Source: a virus
DNA: 55,678 nucleotides
Strand: one strand, 5' to 3'
Virus record (IMG/VR): IMGVR_UViG_3300021085_000038
Coordinates: 1 to 55,678 of that record
Below, one piece after another: positions 11,807 through 32,000 of this stretch (position 1 is the first letter of the stretch; every line of letters begins with the position of its first letter). The notes beneath the pieces were generated by a model. That model was given only the letters and a program-made list of their open reading frames with translations, searched no databases and was not told where the DNA came from. The position numbers and the translations under genes are program-made.

Positions 11807-11965
11807 CTACTTATATAGCTTTCGGTATAGGTCGCCTCTGTTAATACCCATGTCCTTTAATTGACGATCAGTCATGTTATGTAAGATCCAATGGTTAGCT
11901 CGTCTTTCTTGACTACGCTCTATTGTTTTCCAGATACCATTAAGACCATTAAATAAATGTTTCAT
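11807..11965 (-). CDS. DUF1127-like (YjiS-type) small protein
   Basis: A 52-residue protein containing LHNMTDRQLKDMGINRGDLY, which matches the DUF1127 signature of a short helix followed by D-x-x-L-x-D-x-G-h-x-R-x-D. The family is abundant in Alphaproteobacteria, where some members bind RNA or tune metabolism. A phage copy may mimic a host regulator. On the minus strand the start is preceded by an AAGGAG site (plus-strand ctcctt). A TATAAT-like element lies near 12000. Little else can be seen. Confidence 0.7.
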   Translation of the reverse strand: MKHLFNGLNGIWKTIERSQERRANHWILHNMTDRQLKDMGINRGDLYRKLYK

Positions 11966-12030: not shown

Positions 12031-12486
12031 TTATTTAGTAATACCCGATATGCAGCCGATGGCTTCTGATACAGGCAACTTAAACCATTCACCTCTACGA
12101 TCCTGAGATATAGCCGCAAGCTTTTGGTGAGCTATAGATTCATCTTCCCTACGATTGGTAGAAGCAAATGAATACTCAACTACATAATCCCTAAACGGAC
12201 TACTGGTCTGGTAATTACAACATCTATCTGCTGCATCGATAGCCATACCAACCTTTACCCACTCAGGCCAAGCAGGATTAGATATTATATAAACATGCCC
12301 TGCCTTAACCTGGTTATACTGTCTAAGTGCAGTCTGGTGTATGCTTAAAGCTAAACGCTTTAGGCGATTGCGTTTCCCCTTCTTGGAATCACAAACACGG
12401 CATATATAATTATTCTTACGGACGTTACCAATAGACCAGTTAATATTATCTAAAAGCACATCACAATGATTGCAGCACTTATTCAT
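12031..12486 (-). CDS. GIY-YIG nuclease of the T5orf172/MUG113 type with zinc ribbon
   Basis: A 151-residue protein. Residues ~4-36 hold CCNHC and CRVC, a likely zinc-binding pair. Residues ~63-145 (GHVYIISNPAWPEWVKVGM, then CNYQTSSPFRDYVVEYSF, EDESIAHQKLA and GEWFKL) match the compact GIY-YIG fold of the T5orf172/MUG113 group. Such free-standing nucleases are often homing endonucleases or DNA-cleaving accessory proteins. It overlaps the upstream 106-residue gene by 8 bases. It is the only recognisable homing-type nuclease in a genome that also carries an endonuclease-less group I intron. Confidence 0.75.
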   Translation of the reverse strand: MNKCCNHCDVLLDNINWSIGNVRKNNYICRVCDSKKGKRNRLKRLALSIHQTALRQYNQVKAGHVYIISNPAWPEWVKVGMAIDAADRCCNYQTSSPFRDYVVEYSFASTNRREDESIAHQKLAAISQDRRGEWFKLPVSEAIGCISGITK

Positions 12487-12799
12487 CTACAATATTAAAC
12501 AGATCATCTACAGCATCTACGCTGTTCTCAATACGCCCTGCCGAAGCTCTAAGCATCTCAGCCATACGGCTAAACTCATGTGCAATCGTATACAGGCGCT
12601 GATAGCCATCAATGTTGCCATAGAAATCACATAGATCCTCAACAACACCTTCAAGGTCTACCTTAACTTCGGTAGCCTCATCTTCTTCTCCTGCGTACAG
12701 GAAGGTAACAATAGAACTAACACCATCAGCATCTACTACAAAATCATGATCTACGTGTATGGGAAATGTGATGGAGGTATCTGAGCCATATCCACTCAT
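12479..12799 (-). CDS. Hypothetical acidic protein
   Basis: A 106-residue, strongly acidic protein with a beta-rich first half (HDFVVDADGVSSIVTFLY) and a helical second half (YQRLYTIAHEFSRMAEMLRASAGRIE). It has a dedicated promoter with TTGACT-17-TATGGT and an internal TGCCAC box, so it is regulated with the box regulon. It forms a two-gene unit with the GIY-YIG nuclease. I do not recognise the family. An acidic, DNA-mimicking anti-restriction role is possible but unsupported. Confidence 0.65.
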   Translation of the reverse strand: MSGYGSDTSITFPIHVDHDFVVDADGVSSIVTFLYAGEEDEATEVKVDLEGVVEDLCDFYGNIDGYQRLYTIAHEFSRMAEMLRASAGRIENSVDAVDDLFNIVDE

Positions 12800-12845
12800 A
12801 ATATTCTCTCTAAAAGAAACAGCCTAAATAAATAGCCTGTACCTT

Positions 12846-12874
12846 ACCATAACTAAGTGGCACTACTAAGTCAA
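12846..12874 (-). promoter_or_regulatory. Sigma70-type promoter with TGCCAC box in the spacer
   Basis: On the minus strand the -35 is TTGACT (12869-12874), the spacer is 17 bases and the -10 is TATGGT (12846-12851). The box TGCCACTTAGTT occupies the spacer (12851-12862), where a bound protein would block or remodel RNA polymerase. It drives the acidic protein and GIY-YIG genes. Confidence 0.7.
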
Positions 12875-13132
12875 GCTATTTACAACATCCTGATCAAATA
12901 AACCCTGTACCCACACGATGTTGACATAACCACAACATACAATCCTGCTGCTCCCAAGCATGGCCTACTTTACTGTTCCATTTTCCCAATCTCTGGTTGT
13001 GTTTGTATACGGTACGGGTATACCCCCCCATGGCACATGCCCCCTCTAAGCTATTGATATTGTTATATAATATATATGTATACTATTAGGCCACAACTTA
13101 AAAGATATAGGGCTTTAAGCTTTAATTGCCTG

Positions 13133-13421
13133 TATAATATAAGGATTAATTAAAAAAGTTTTTGTAAAAAGTTAATGTTTTGAAAGCTTACCAGGCTTTT
13201 ATCGATAAAAAATTATTATCTCAAAGCTAATGACGAATCACACAAGCAAGGGCGGAGGTTCATTGCGTGCATGAACTGGTAAGCTTTCAGCTGCATGAAA
13301 ACAAACGCCCTTGCTAACGGCTATATAAGCCACACACAAAGCCATTAGTTAAGGCTTGCTTGTATACCTAGCTAAAAGATATTTAAGGGCGTGTATGGCT
13401 TTTAATAGTTATCAATAGGCA
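13133..13421 (+). ncRNA. Candidate structured RNA or origin region with nested inverted repeats
   Basis: The stretch 12875-13421 has no gene. The left part (12880-13132) is AT-rich and contains a C-run; I see no other element in it. From a TATAAT at 13133 onward there are long perfect pairings. A 14-bp stem joins 13181-13194 to 13276-13289. A 9-bp stem joins 13246-13254 (GCAAGGGCG) to 13306-13314 and crosses the first stem as a pseudoknot. GTTCAT/ATGAAC (13258-13276) and the palindrome TTTTATCGATAAAA sit inside. Competing partners are CTTGCTTGT (13355-13363) and AAGGGCGT (13385-13392). It could be a noncoding RNA ending at the next hairpin or a replication origin. The strand is a guess. Confidence 0.4.
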
Positions 13422-13456
13422 TAAAAAAAGCCTTACCAAATGAATGATAAGGCTTT
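13422..13456 (-). terminator. Rho-independent terminator of the accessory cluster
   Basis: A 9-bp perfect stem (AAAGCCTTA / TAAGGCTTT) with a 12-base loop is followed on the minus strand by an unbroken run of seven T (counting the stem end). It lies 23 bases after the stop at 13479 and closes the leftward transcript of the 13.5-15.2 kb genes. Confidence 0.85.
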
Positions 13457-13478
13457 CAAAGCTTTATGTTTGTTTTAG

Positions 13479-13829
13479 TTATTCGTTATTATTTACATAG
13501 TTAATTACTTCCTGAAAATCATTTGTAGAAAGTAATGTAATGTCATTGCTAATTACACCATTATAATTATCAGCATATTCTATTGTGAATCTAGACATTA
13601 AATTATCATCTGTTACATCAACACCATCAACAATTTTTCTTTCTTCTGAAATATATAAATCTTTACCAAATATATTTTTAGTGTTTTGTATACGCTGATG
13701 TAAATCGTGGCTATCAATCCAAATATGATAACCATTGAATTGATAACTAGGTAATTCATCATGATGAAAGCTTGTGCATTCCCAATTATCAGGAATATCT
13801 AAATCAGTTATATATGTATCCCAATTCAT
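13479..13829 (-). CDS. Hypothetical acidic protein in the AT-rich cluster
   Basis: A 116-residue protein, acidic and Asn-rich (MNWDTYITDLDIPDNWECTS...), with no motif I recognise. It overlaps the preceding gene by 4 bases (ATGA type) and is the last gene before a strong terminator. Base composition is markedly more AT-rich than the phage core genes, as for the rest of this small cluster, consistent with recent acquisition. Confidence 0.65.
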   Translation of the reverse strand: MNWDTYITDLDIPDNWECTSFHHDELPSYQFNGYHIWIDSHDLHQRIQNTKNIFGKDLYISEERKIVDGVDVTDDNLMSRFTIEYADNYNGVISNDITLLSTNDFQEVINYVNNNE

Positions 13830-14038
13830 TTGCCTGACTCCTTTATTTGCTTTTCAATCTTTTCTTTTATTGCTTTTACTTGATCAATTGTAAGCATATT
13901 AGCAAATTGTTCTGAAAGATTAATAGCACGCTTTTCTTGTTCTTTGCTTGGTGCAAGAATTGCTAGGCATAAAGCATTTTCAAAAGCTTTTGATATTGTC
14001 ATATCTTTTTGATTAAAATCTATATTTTCAAGTTTCAT
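13826..14038 (-). CDS. Small hypothetical helical protein
   Basis: A 70-residue protein, MKLENIDFNQKDMTISKAFENALCLAIL..., ending in a charged helix (IDQVKAIKEKIEKQIKESGK). The start lies in a 26-base leader repeated exactly before the GP88-like gene, with AAAGGA as ribosome site. It is coupled to the next gene by a 4-base overlap. I do not recognise the family. Confidence 0.65.
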   Translation of the reverse strand: MKLENIDFNQKDMTISKAFENALCLAILAPSKEQEKRAINLSEQFANMLTIDQVKAIKEKIEKQIKESGK

Positions 14039-14056
14039 TTGGTCAGTTCCTTTTGT
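14031..14056. repeat. 26-bp exact repeat of a translation leader (copy 1)
   Basis: This segment is identical to 15217-15242 and covers the ribosome site, spacer, ATG and first codons of two unrelated genes (13826-14038 and 14520-15224). A looser third copy lies before the gene at 14350, and a decayed copy without a start codon is near 29013-29038. Leader duplication may have accompanied gene acquisition or ensures shared translational control. Confidence 0.75.
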
Positions 14057-14058
14057 GT

Positions 14059-14151
14059 TTAATTAATTAATAGTTCAATAAATAGTGAAGCATATATGAT
14101 TCCGAATAGGCAAAGACATGCTATAAAATCGGCAATGAATTCTTTAATCAT
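14059..14151 (-). CDS. Tiny single-span membrane protein
   Basis: A 30-residue frame whose ATG overlaps the TAA of the upstream membrane gene (ATGATTAA). The product is one hydrophobic helix (FIACLCLFGIIYASLFIELL) with a short charged start. Overlapping two membrane genes is typical of phage lysis accessory or superinfection-immunity peptides. The function is inferred only from this layout. Confidence 0.45.
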   Translation of the reverse strand: MIKEFIADFIACLCLFGIIYASLFIELLIN

Positions 14152-14350
14152 TTGCTTTTCTTTCTATTTCCAATTCATGAATCCGCATTTCATCTTGAAC
14201 TCTTTTTCTTGCCGCACTTATTAACCTTTGTTCAAAGGCTTCATAATATTCAGGATTTCTTAATCGTTTATCATTGCGATAAGCGAAAACAAAAACCGCA
14301 AGAATAGTTGTAATAAGTAACAAGCAAATAATTAATAATAGTGTTTGCAT
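14144..14350 (-). CDS. Small membrane-anchored protein
   Basis: A 68-residue protein with one N-terminal transmembrane helix (residues 3-24, LLLIICLLLITTILAVFVFAY) and a long charged cytoplasmic helix rich in Arg and Glu. The shape resembles spanin- or exclusion-type phage membrane proteins, but the real lysis genes lie at 40-42 kb. It is coupled to the 30-residue membrane peptide. The leader contains AAACACAAAACGGAG, a variant of the repeated leader. Confidence 0.6.
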   Translation of the reverse strand: MQTLLLIICLLLITTILAVFVFAYRNDKRLRNPEYYEAFEQRLISAARKRVQDEMRIHELEIERKAND

Positions 14351-14404
14351 ATTCCAGACTCCGTTTTGTGTTTAAGTTAAGGGCAAAGCTTGCGCCCTTA
14401 ACAA

Positions 14405-14453
14405 TAATTAATGTATTTTTGGTATTTAGTAAAGCCACTCTATTAAATGGCTT
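14405..14453 (-). promoter_or_regulatory. Promoter with palindromic GCCACT box
   Basis: On the minus strand, TTTACT (14428-14433), a 17-base spacer and TAATTA (14405-14410) precede the membrane-protein gene. Overlapping the -35 is the near-palindrome AAGCCA...TGGCTT (14432-14453), a variant of the TGCCAC box. The 168-base gap between 14351 and 14519 otherwise holds only AT-rich leader. Confidence 0.55.
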
Positions 14454-14519
14454 AAAAGGTTTGGTCTATTATCCAAAGCCAAACAACAACAAAGCCTACA
14501 AAGGCATACAAATAAAGCA

Positions 14520-15224
14520 TTAGGCAACCGCCCTTAATGCTGTTTCAGGATTGTCTATTATAAACGGACTCTTGCTTGCTTGTATTGCTTTGCCGCCCTT
14601 TAACTTTAAGCCAACAACAACTTTACCTGAATATAAGTTTACTAAGTCTGATTTATCGCCATCAATCACAATTCTATTTAAGTATGTGGAAGGCATACCA
14701 CCACGAAAAACAACAGTTATAGGAAAATCTGTTTCCATTGCTTGCTTAACTTGTGGCTGATACTTTTCAGCGGCGCTATATGAAAACATAAGTTTATAAT
14801 TATCAGGCGTTTTTCCTAATCGTCTTGCTACCTTAGTATAGTCATAGAATAATGAATTTTTGAATAGTTGTGGAATTGCGTATTTTTCCCAAGCAATGTC
14901 AGAAATTGTATTTAAACGAAAAGCGGCTAACTTACCTTTTCTTTCACACTTCAATTCAAAAGCGGCTATTTCTTTTTTTAATTGTTCAAGAAATATTTCT
15001 TTATCTGAATGCCATAAATCCGTTTTGCTTTGTCTTGCTTTTGCTACTGAATGCATTTGACCACGTCCTGAACTTACAAGACATTCATGAACACAATTAG
15101 CCATGTATTGTTGTGGACATATTACAAGGTCAGGCATTAACGACAAACTGGCAATATTATATTCAGTTCCGTTTTGAGTTTTCATTATTTTAGTGTTGGA
15201 TGCATTTGTATTTAATAGTTTCAT
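14520..15224 (-). CDS. GP88-like phage protein
   Basis: A 234-residue protein resembling the phage GP88 family. A short N-terminal strand region is followed by LSLMPDLVICPQQYMANCVHECLVSSGRGQ (family pattern: pairs of Cys then GRG). KARQSKTDLWHSDKEIFLEQLKKEIAAFE and then FRLNTISDIAWEKYAIPQLF follow, matching the family's RLN-SDI-WE block. The biochemical role of the family is not established to my knowledge. It is the first gene of the AT-rich leftward cluster and has its own promoter and the repeated leader. Confidence 0.75.
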   Translation of the reverse strand: MKLLNTNASNTKIMKTQNGTEYNIASLSLMPDLVICPQQYMANCVHECLVSSGRGQMHSVAKARQSKTDLWHSDKEIFLEQLKKEIAAFELKCERKGKLAAFRLNTISDIAWEKYAIPQLFKNSLFYDYTKVARRLGKTPDNYKLMFSYSAAEKYQPQVKQAMETDFPITVVFRGGMPSTYLNRIVIDGDKSDLVNLYSGKVVVGLKLKGGKAIQASKSPFIIDNPETALRAVA

Positions 15225-28826: not shown

Positions 28827-28950
28827 AGCAGCACGTTCCCAGGCTAAATCATTCTGGAGTAGCCAAGGGTATACATGCACTGATCATGAAAACGAGTATG
28901 ATGTAGATCTTGTTGTAGAAAAAGCTGTATTTATTCAAACAATGCAATAA
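28783..28950 (+). CDS. 55-residue hypothetical protein at the end of the early region
   Basis: Starts with an AGGAAAAC leader and ATG at 28783. The product, MYKVFQSKDFNKYDEAARSQAKSFWSSQGY..., looks like a compact alpha-beta domain ending in a strand (EYDVDLVVEKAVFIQ). It resembles small phage proteins with a DHENEYDVDL acidic stretch that I cannot name. The stop codon is followed at once by the hairpin that terminates the opposing transcript. Confidence 0.6.
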   Translation: MYKVFQSKDFNKYDEAARSQAKSFWSSQGYTCTDHENEYDVDLVVEKAVFIQTMQ

Positions 28951-28981
28951 AAAACGCCCTCAAGTGCTTGACCTGAAGGCG
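28949..28981 (-). terminator. Terminator of the leftward virion operon
   Basis: On the minus strand CGCC-T-TCA ... TGA-G-GGCG forms a stem with one mismatch and is followed by TTTTTT. It lies ~85 bases beyond the last minus-strand stop (29066) and overlaps the stop of the last rightward gene. Confidence 0.75.
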
Positions 28982-29038
28982 TAAATTATATAAAAAAATC
29001 TAGAAGCTGAACCTTGGTCGGTTCTGTTTTGTGTTTAA

Positions 29039-29067
29039 GCCCCTGGACTTCGGTTCGGGGGTTTTTT
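29039..29067 (+). terminator. Terminator of the rightward early operon
   Basis: A 9-bp stem CCCCTGGAC / GTTCGGGGG (GU pairs included) closed by a TTCG tetraloop is followed by six T. It overlaps the stop of the opposing virion gene. Early and late transcripts therefore overlap antisense for about 90 bases before each stops. Confidence 0.9.
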
Positions 29068-32000
29068 ATTGCATACTAAAAAGTTCTAACATGTCACGAT
29101 CCATAGTGCTGTTTTCTTCCTTACCGAAAGCATCTTCCTCTATAACACGTATCTCATATCTACTACCTGCTGCGGTAGCACTTACAGCTTCTAAGGCTAA
29201 TTTATTAGCAACTTTTCTAACAGTTGTACCTTGTCCTTTTGCTAATTCTCTTAGTAGTTCTTCGAACTTAGCAGGTTGTGAAACGATAACGGCTAATACA
29301 TTAGATGCTACTTCTTTCTGTAACTTTTCTGCTTCAGCTATAGGTACACTGGTAATTCTGCGTAGCATAGCGGCTGTGGGGTTCATGTAACCTGCTGTTA
29401 ATAGAATGGCTGTAGATACCGCATCTCGTATGTCTTCGCTACGTGCTGCATTTACTATAGTATCTGATCCTGCCTGAGAAACTTTCAGACGGCTAGGTAG
29501 AGATGTCTGATACATCATGTTAACAACATCAGTAACAGCTTCTGCCATTGCACTGTCATTACCATATACCACATTAATAGACTTAAATAAGTTACTTGTA
29601 TCATCTGCACTTAATTTACTAACTGCACCTATATTTATATTTTTACGTGCTTTTGTACCTGTCTTTAATGCAGTACCTGTAGCACCAAATATCTTTTCTC
29701 CTACCGTGTTCAACGCTACGGCTTGCAAAGCTTCTCTGGCTAACTTCTTTTGAGCATCATCAGGTAACAAATCAATCTTATTTACTAACTCTTGCATCCT
29801 GTTAGCAGAGTTTTTAGATGTCATAATTGATTGTATTACATCTTTAGCACTAGAAGTTACGGTACTTGCTCCCGTACCTGTAGCAGTGGTATCTATAAGT
29901 TGCTTTACCACACCTTCATGAGCTTGCTTAATACTAGCATCTAGCTCTTTAACTAATAAATCATTTGCGGCTTTAACATCCCCAAGACCTGAGTGTGCTG
30001 CGCTAACCTGATCAAAAGCCTTCTGCACACGATTTAATAGGTCTTGATCACCTAATCTCTGTAACTGCTCCCGTACAGGAGCGAATGCATTGAACAGTAC
30101 TTTCTCAGGATCTCCTCCTCCAGCACCAGATGCTAGTACATCTCTAAGACTGTTTGCTGCTTTTGCTACAAACATATCACGGAAAGACCCTTTTAATTCT
30201 TCGGGATTAACTATGTCTTTTGCTGCAAAGATAAGACCGTCCATTAACGTACCTGTTTCATCAGCAATTACTTCATTAACAAACTGACTTCCTGCAAGCA
30301 CTACATCGTCTTGGTTTCTTTGTCCTGGCCCAGGATAATTAGCATCCTCATAATCAAACTTACGCATTTCTTGAAATGTATCAGTTAAACGCCGCATAGG
30401 CTCAGACCTAGCAAACTGTGCTTTAGCTAAAATATACTTATCATCAGCGGCTTTGTAGGCATCGGCTATCGCTGGATTATCTACAGTTCTAAGGACATAT
30501 TCCATTTGTCCGTTTTTGTTATCTGTTATATGGTTTCTAAAAGAAATTAGCTTTTGTTGTACTGACGGCTGATCACTGTAAGCATCTATAACTCGTGCTA
30601 ATCTTGCTTTTAAGGTATACAAATCTTTAAAGTTTAAACCTTCTCCAATGTTTTCCATTACATCATCAACAGGACTATCAAATAGTTCATTGAGAGCGGC
30701 TTTAGTTCTGCCACCTGTATTATCTATTAGGTTAATGCTCTCTGTTACTTCTGCTAATTTAGAGTTGAATAAATCAACATCAATCGGTGCTTCTGGTAGA
30801 TTTTTATATGCCAGATCAACTTCATCCATTACTGCAACAAACTCATCATAAACATCAGTACTAACTAATTCAGTTAATTTCTGACGCATCTCGTTGTTGG
30901 TATTGGTGAATAAATTATCAGTGCCTGTTAAATCACCTACAATGTCTTGCAACACAGGGTTGTCTATAATTACATCTGATTGGGCATTTAGTATTTCATC
31001 AGTCTGTGAATTAAGCTCATTCTTCTGTAGGTTTAAGGCGGCTACTTCATCATCAGCACTTTTTACAACTTGAGATGCAACCGATTGAGCTGCCCCATCC
31101 ACATCTCCACCTATTTCTGCTGCTTCAGTTATAAACTCCCCTATTTGATTAGGTACACTATCAACAGTTGCAGCTACTCTTGAATCACTTAACTGGCTTC
31201 TAAACAAACCAATCATTGACGAAGACATACGAGCAGCTTCAGTATTTACTAACTCTTCGAATGCTTCCGCAGACATTGTATTTTTTAAACCTGCCCGTGT
31301 TTCTCTAATATATGCATCAGAAGACATCATGATAGCATTGGTAGTATCAGCGGTTATTTCACCTGTAACATCGCCCAGCGCAACTTTTATAATTCTATTA
31401 TCATTTAGCTTGTCTGCCAGGGATGAAATTCTAAGCTTTAATTGTGCGGGTTTTAAATTAACAATATCAGGATCAAGGTATTTAAATACTTCTAATATAG
31501 TACCATCTTGTACTGCCTTTTTAAGAGCATTCTTATTAAGTGCTTGTTTACCTGCTGATACTTTACCATAGGCAAAACCAAAGCCTCTTCCTAATAGAGA
31601 TAATGCACCATCCATTACACCATTAAGAGCTAAACCATCAATAAACATTGCTAAGTTTTTAGCATTTTGATCACTGATGTTTGGCAACAAATCATTAACA
31701 GCACTTGGTTTAACAAATAAACCCTCGTCACCCTCTCCTGACATAACCGTTTCAGATACAGCACCACCAAGGGCTACAGCAAGAGCAGTACCTTTTGTAC
31801 CTACATCTCCTGACTTACCTGCGGTAGATGCATACTTTATAAGACCCCCGCCATATTTTAATACTTTAGTTACTGGTAATGTAGGAGCAGCTATAGATAG
31901 GATAGTAGACGCAATCTCTTCGCCTCCTGATAAATCCATATCTGGTCTGGATTCAGCAAACTTGCTTTTACCCATTATAGCGCCTTCAGTAATCAGACCT

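Follow-up and report, generated by a model that had tools for sequence, protein, structure and literature searches.

A conserved gene-free region beside the late operon of HMO-2011-type phages, tentatively read as a replication origin

GOLLD, ROOL and HEARO are large structured phage RNAs. The region described here resembles them in being a long gene-free part of a phage genome with strong predicted stems; it differs in having neither an Rfam match nor a covarying consensus fold. Another close precedent is a DNA element: in PLE, the satellite of phage ICP1, a repeat-bearing non-coding region (NCR, with RepA iterons) is a known replication origin (PMC7145576). As in NCR-type origins, we find a single intergenic non-coding region in each genome, containing repeats in direct and in inverted orientation. 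Unlike them, the region has two box pairs of constant spacing and no regular iteron array, no initiator protein was identified for it, and its role as an origin is one that we infer. HMO-2011-type phages, to which it belongs, are described as a dominant group with a wide distribution in the ocean (PMC9038755). We found no report in the literature of where replication or packaging starts in these phages and no published description of the region, papers on HMO-2011-type phages included. As far as we found, it was previously undescribed; it belongs to a known kind, that of phage control or origin regions acting in cis, and its anatomy is unusual. A universal, single-copy, alignable non-coding element is a precise target in the search for the start of replication or packaging in cultured phages, for example CRP-235.

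The window, that is, the whole stretch of DNA analysed, is the IMG/VR virus record IMGVR_UViG_3300021085_000038 (55,678 nt). The two contig ends (1-1341 and 54338-55678, 1341 bases each) overlap, matching end to end where checked, and the contig is therefore terminally redundant, with a map of about 54.3 kb. The terminase shares 74% identity with that of Roseobacter phage CRP-235 and about 63% with that of Puniceispirillum phage HMO-2011; judged by this identity, the source is an HMO-2011-type podovirus. No close DNA match was found among phage records, and a distant-mode DNA search of these records matched only CRP-235 and CRP-212. A group I intron (Rfam RF00028, 83 bits) lies at 2289-2497 on the minus strand, the strand of the structural genes. 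The minus-strand operon adjoining the gap encodes a T5orf172/MUG113 (GIY-YIG-like) protein at 12031-12486, and CRP-738 has a putative endonuclease VII at a like position. There is also a minus-strand DUF1127 protein at 11807-11965; CRP-603 likewise annotates one near its terminase.

The initial annotation called the region free of genes, and indeed there is no ORF longer than 45 aa in 12800-13478. At the left edge, a promoter scan gives a candidate sigma-70 promoter (TTGACT-17-TATGGT, 12846-12874, minus strand) for the late/packaging operon that starts at 12799, and by eye a -35 TTGAC with a similar -10 is seen at this edge in several relatives. At the right edge, the hairpin previously annotated as a strong terminator (13422-13456) is present, but its T-run is on the minus strand, opposite to the TATAAT. 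Because of this orientation, we assign it as the predicted intrinsic terminator of the minus-strand operon 13479-15224 and not as a plus-strand terminator; relatives have a plus-strand A-run followed by a hairpin in the same place. The TATAAT itself was correctly located at 13133-13138. The promoter scan, however, found no acceptable -35 for it, nor any plus-strand promoter in the gap. Two other promoter types were considered and rejected: a sigma-54 promoter built on TGGCAC has the wrong spacing by eye, and for hairpin promoters of an N4-type virion RNA polymerase the phage encodes no protein that large (the largest ORF is 1335 aa).

All 13 Roseobacter/HMO-2011-type genomes compared (CRP-235, 212, 3, 738, 1, 2, 9, 13, 207, 345 and 603, ctYwJ313 and HMO-2011) have a gene-free region of about 0.5-1.5 kb at a corresponding position. 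In CRP-235, 212, 3 and 738 it is about 750-860 bp long, carries no annotation and lies upstream of a homologue of the 106-aa gene 12479-12799, and in CRP-1, 2, 9, 13, 207, 345 and 603 it is 0.9-1.5 kb of gene-free sequence at the end of the record. Pattern and protein searches yielded many IMG/VR contigs. Positions 12800-13478 are the window's version of this region, which HMO-2011-type phages retain beside the late operon. A Paracoccaceae single-cell genome contains an HMO-2011-like provirus in decay (L148; G001:C34:1-17500), with a split terminase and an integrase followed by host-type genes. Integration would split an attP of the phage integrase; in this provirus, with its adjoining host-type genes, the gap is intact.

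Two blocks of the region each align almost without gaps across 22 phages. The core of block A (12969-13010, plus strand) comprises a TTTAC box and a GTATAC box whose starts are 36 bp apart. Its pattern occurs once per genome in eight of eight records, with zero hits for a reversed-pattern control, and the window carries it once without mismatch; a more diverged block A is found in CRP-1, 2, 9, 13, 207, 603 and 345 and in ctYwJ313, and a weak one in HMO-2011. Comparison with relatives extends the block through 13011-13046 (plus strand; GGTACGGGTATACC palindromes, a C run, TGGCACATG and a second C run), so that block A overall spans 12969-13046: after GTATAC come GGTACGGGTACACC-type palindromes and TGGCACTCG between C or G runs. 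Across relatives the runs flanking TGGCACTCG are C/C, G/C, C/G or G/G, and they switch strand independently (L083, L107, L110, L114, L122, L130, L135, L138). We considered a hairpin around TGGCACTCG: the runs can pair in some phages (G/C, C/G) and not in others (C/C, G/G), and these varied combinations exclude a simple stem. Further along the plus strand, the alignment shows a conserved motif, AAGCTATTGATATTGTTATATAA, at 13047-13071 (family AA-CC-TTGTTTTTATT), AT-rich in the window but not in GC-rich relatives, and at 13095-13106 a degenerate small-dyad copy (AACT..AGTT / ACCT..AGGT in relatives).

Block C (13230-13272, plus strand) consists of (T/A)TGACG, a G-rich core (GCAAGGGCGGAGG...TTGC) and GTGCAT, the boxes being 37 bp apart; in relatives TTGACG and the G-rich core are followed, 37 bp on, by GTGTAC. 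Block C lies about 260 bp after block A, with distances of 255-325 bp among the phages, and the box spacing within each block is fixed although the sequence between the blocks is replaced from one relative to another. The GC content of this intervening segment is 24% in the window and 61-62% in GC-rich relatives; its AT-richness, being lost there, is unlikely to be a general unwinding element.

The stems on which the initial annotation was built are all present in the window: a 14-bp inverted repeat (TGAAAGCTTACCAG 13181-13194 with CTGGTAAGCTTTCA 13276-13289), whose 5' arm is confined to this phage and to L147, a contig identical to it; a 9-bp pair crossing it (GCAAGGGCG 13246-13254 with CGCCCTTGC 13306-13314), extendable to 10 bp as 13245-13254/13306-13315; and alternative pairs of 9 bp (ACAAGCAAG 13242-13250 with CTTGCTTGT 13355-13363) and 8 bp (ACGCCCTT 13305-13312 with AAGGGCGT 13385-13392). 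They exceed chance: a 14-bp inverted repeat with spacing up to 150 arose in one of 500 dinucleotide shuffles of 12875-13456, where inverted repeats of at least 8 bp number 8 against 2.2 expected (P 0.002). The only other short-spaced 14-bp inverted repeat in the window is at 28942-29074, between convergent operons. Minimum free energy z-scores against shuffles are -3.3 for the plus and -3.9 for the minus strand; the two being similar, folding has no strand preference.

The word ACAAGCAAGGGCG lies within block C (13242-13254, plus strand) and has partial copies downstream, two inverted (AGCAAGGGCG at 13306-13315 and ACAAGCAAG at 13355-13363, both minus strand) and one direct (AAGGGCGT at 13385-13392, plus strand). 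More generally, within the 370 bp after block C its 7-letter words are repeated 91 times directly (30.6 expected) and 83 times inverted (51.6 expected), the direct enrichment being the stronger and neither count being reached in 200 shuffles; the arrangement of the copies is irregular. Since block C words recur downstream in both orientations, and any inverted pair of words resembles a stem, some of these pairs are bound to cross one another or to compete for the same arm. The stems noted at the outset would then be what a short word looks like when copies of it, direct and inverted, are dispersed through the sequence, with no RNA fold.

A new structured RNA with alternative folds, as initially proposed, is not borne out by the relatives. 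Covariation among homologues had been suggested as the check, and it did not show the stems to be kept by compensatory changes. Across four relatives, pairing in the 14-bp stem amounts to 59%; the stem is perfect in the window alone and broken in the three relatives that differ there (the closest relatives being L100, L088/L004 and L006). No variation is seen in the 9-bp stem or its alternatives among two or three near-identical sequences; as they never vary, they provide no test of pairing and prove nothing. The standard tool gives almost no consensus fold: -1.07 kcal/mol on the plus strand for a 22-phage alignment of 12960-13279, and 0 kcal/mol for a 16-phage minus-strand alignment. A less strict alignment of 25 sequences, stripped of gappy columns, did fold below its shuffled columns (-17.9 against -9.4 and -21.1 against -7.7). 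This weak contrary signal is present on both strands, stronger on the minus, and comes mostly from local palindromes and a C-run:G-run match; we read it as DNA palindromes, and it keeps alive the rival of a plus-strand phage RNA of about 270-300 nt, perhaps running from block A to block C. Such an RNA would also fit the strong stems and their z-scores, the constant distance between the blocks, a plus strand that is G-rich up to block C and, in a small hairpin, what may be a single compensatory change (AAAGCCAT/ATGGCTTT in the window, AAAGCCAC/GTGGTTT in L100, with a one-column shift). We nevertheless consider it improbable, given the broken 14-bp stem, the near-zero energies of the 22- and 16-phage folds, z-scores that favour neither strand, the minus-strand terminator and the lack of a plus-strand promoter in the scan. 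Rfam gives it no match either: at gathering score only the intron at 2289-2497 reaches threshold in the window, and at E 10 only chance-level matches fall in 12800-13500. A tRNA/tmRNA search found none.

The main rival to an origin is a transcription control region with no replication role, carrying operators and upstream activator sites for the late (minus-strand) and early operons, with a phage regulator acting at blocks A and C. The gap shares with phage late-promoter and operator regions a candidate promoter at its edge, small dyad motifs and -35-like boxes. On the minus strand the promoter-like site at the left edge is conserved, a terminator marks the right edge, the TTTAC and TTGAC boxes resemble -35 elements, and GTATAC or GTGTAC lies where a start site would be. 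In CRP-1-type phages it parts minus-strand late genes from plus-strand genes at the start of the record. However, a search of both blocks for sigma-70 elements 16-18 bp apart found the -35-like box and no -10, neither block having one at 17 bp; block A, single-copy in each genome, is not repeated at other operons; and at about 600 bp, with a long, variable, repeat-bearing segment, the region exceeds what a promoter needs. We regard this explanation as unlikely, if still one to be taken seriously. A packaging (pac) site recognised by the terminase strikes us as quite improbable. Like pac and cos sites, the region is a conserved, G/C-rich cis element a few kb from terminase genes (about 4 kb), and strict box spacing and G/C runs would suit it; moreover, of 28 contigs (L112-L137) about 15 stop inside the gap, while only 2 stop within 900 bp on the far side of the flanking gene. 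But five near-complete contigs and the window run through the gap, which makes fixed genome ends unlikely, the points at which contigs stop vary by hundreds of bp, as tandem repeats or strain variation can explain, and about ten genes separate the gap from the terminase small subunit. The frequent breaks of shorter contigs perhaps reflect such repeats or strain variation; the gap is an assembly-break hotspot among the 28 contigs.

Conservation without coding or folding argues for a cis-acting DNA region, which a phage or host protein would bind. Its most likely role, to which comparison of these sequences leads us to give a rough probability of 0.48, is that of a replication origin. The initial annotation had named an origin as the alternative to an RNA, and this remains plausible: each genome has one such conserved non-coding locus, as would suit an origin, it lies at an operon boundary, and it carries repeated words. 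Enrichment of direct as well as inverted words counts for DNA, since an RNA would favour inverted ones only. GC skew had been proposed earlier as a check. Its sign changes just after block C in most phages, and when same-strand genes on the two sides of the gap are compared, three of five genomes show a GC3 skew shift in the direction predicted for an origin; the step is absent in CRP-738 and in the window. At such an origin, the box pairs and the repeated words would serve as protein-binding sites, and the segment between the blocks (AT-rich in this phage) would melt to let in the phage primase/PolA machinery, with the late promoter and the early-operon terminator placed at the two edges of the region. 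A more specific version, in which two box pairs (36 and 37 bp spacing) about 260 bp apart, one with strand-flipping G/C runs, form a new kind of phage DNA element that a novel phage protein recognises to start replication or packaging, is in our estimate doubtful. In CRP-1, 345, 13 and 2 (L139, L140, L141, L144), the perfect palindrome TTGTGATCACAA is present in one or two copies, and in the gap only.
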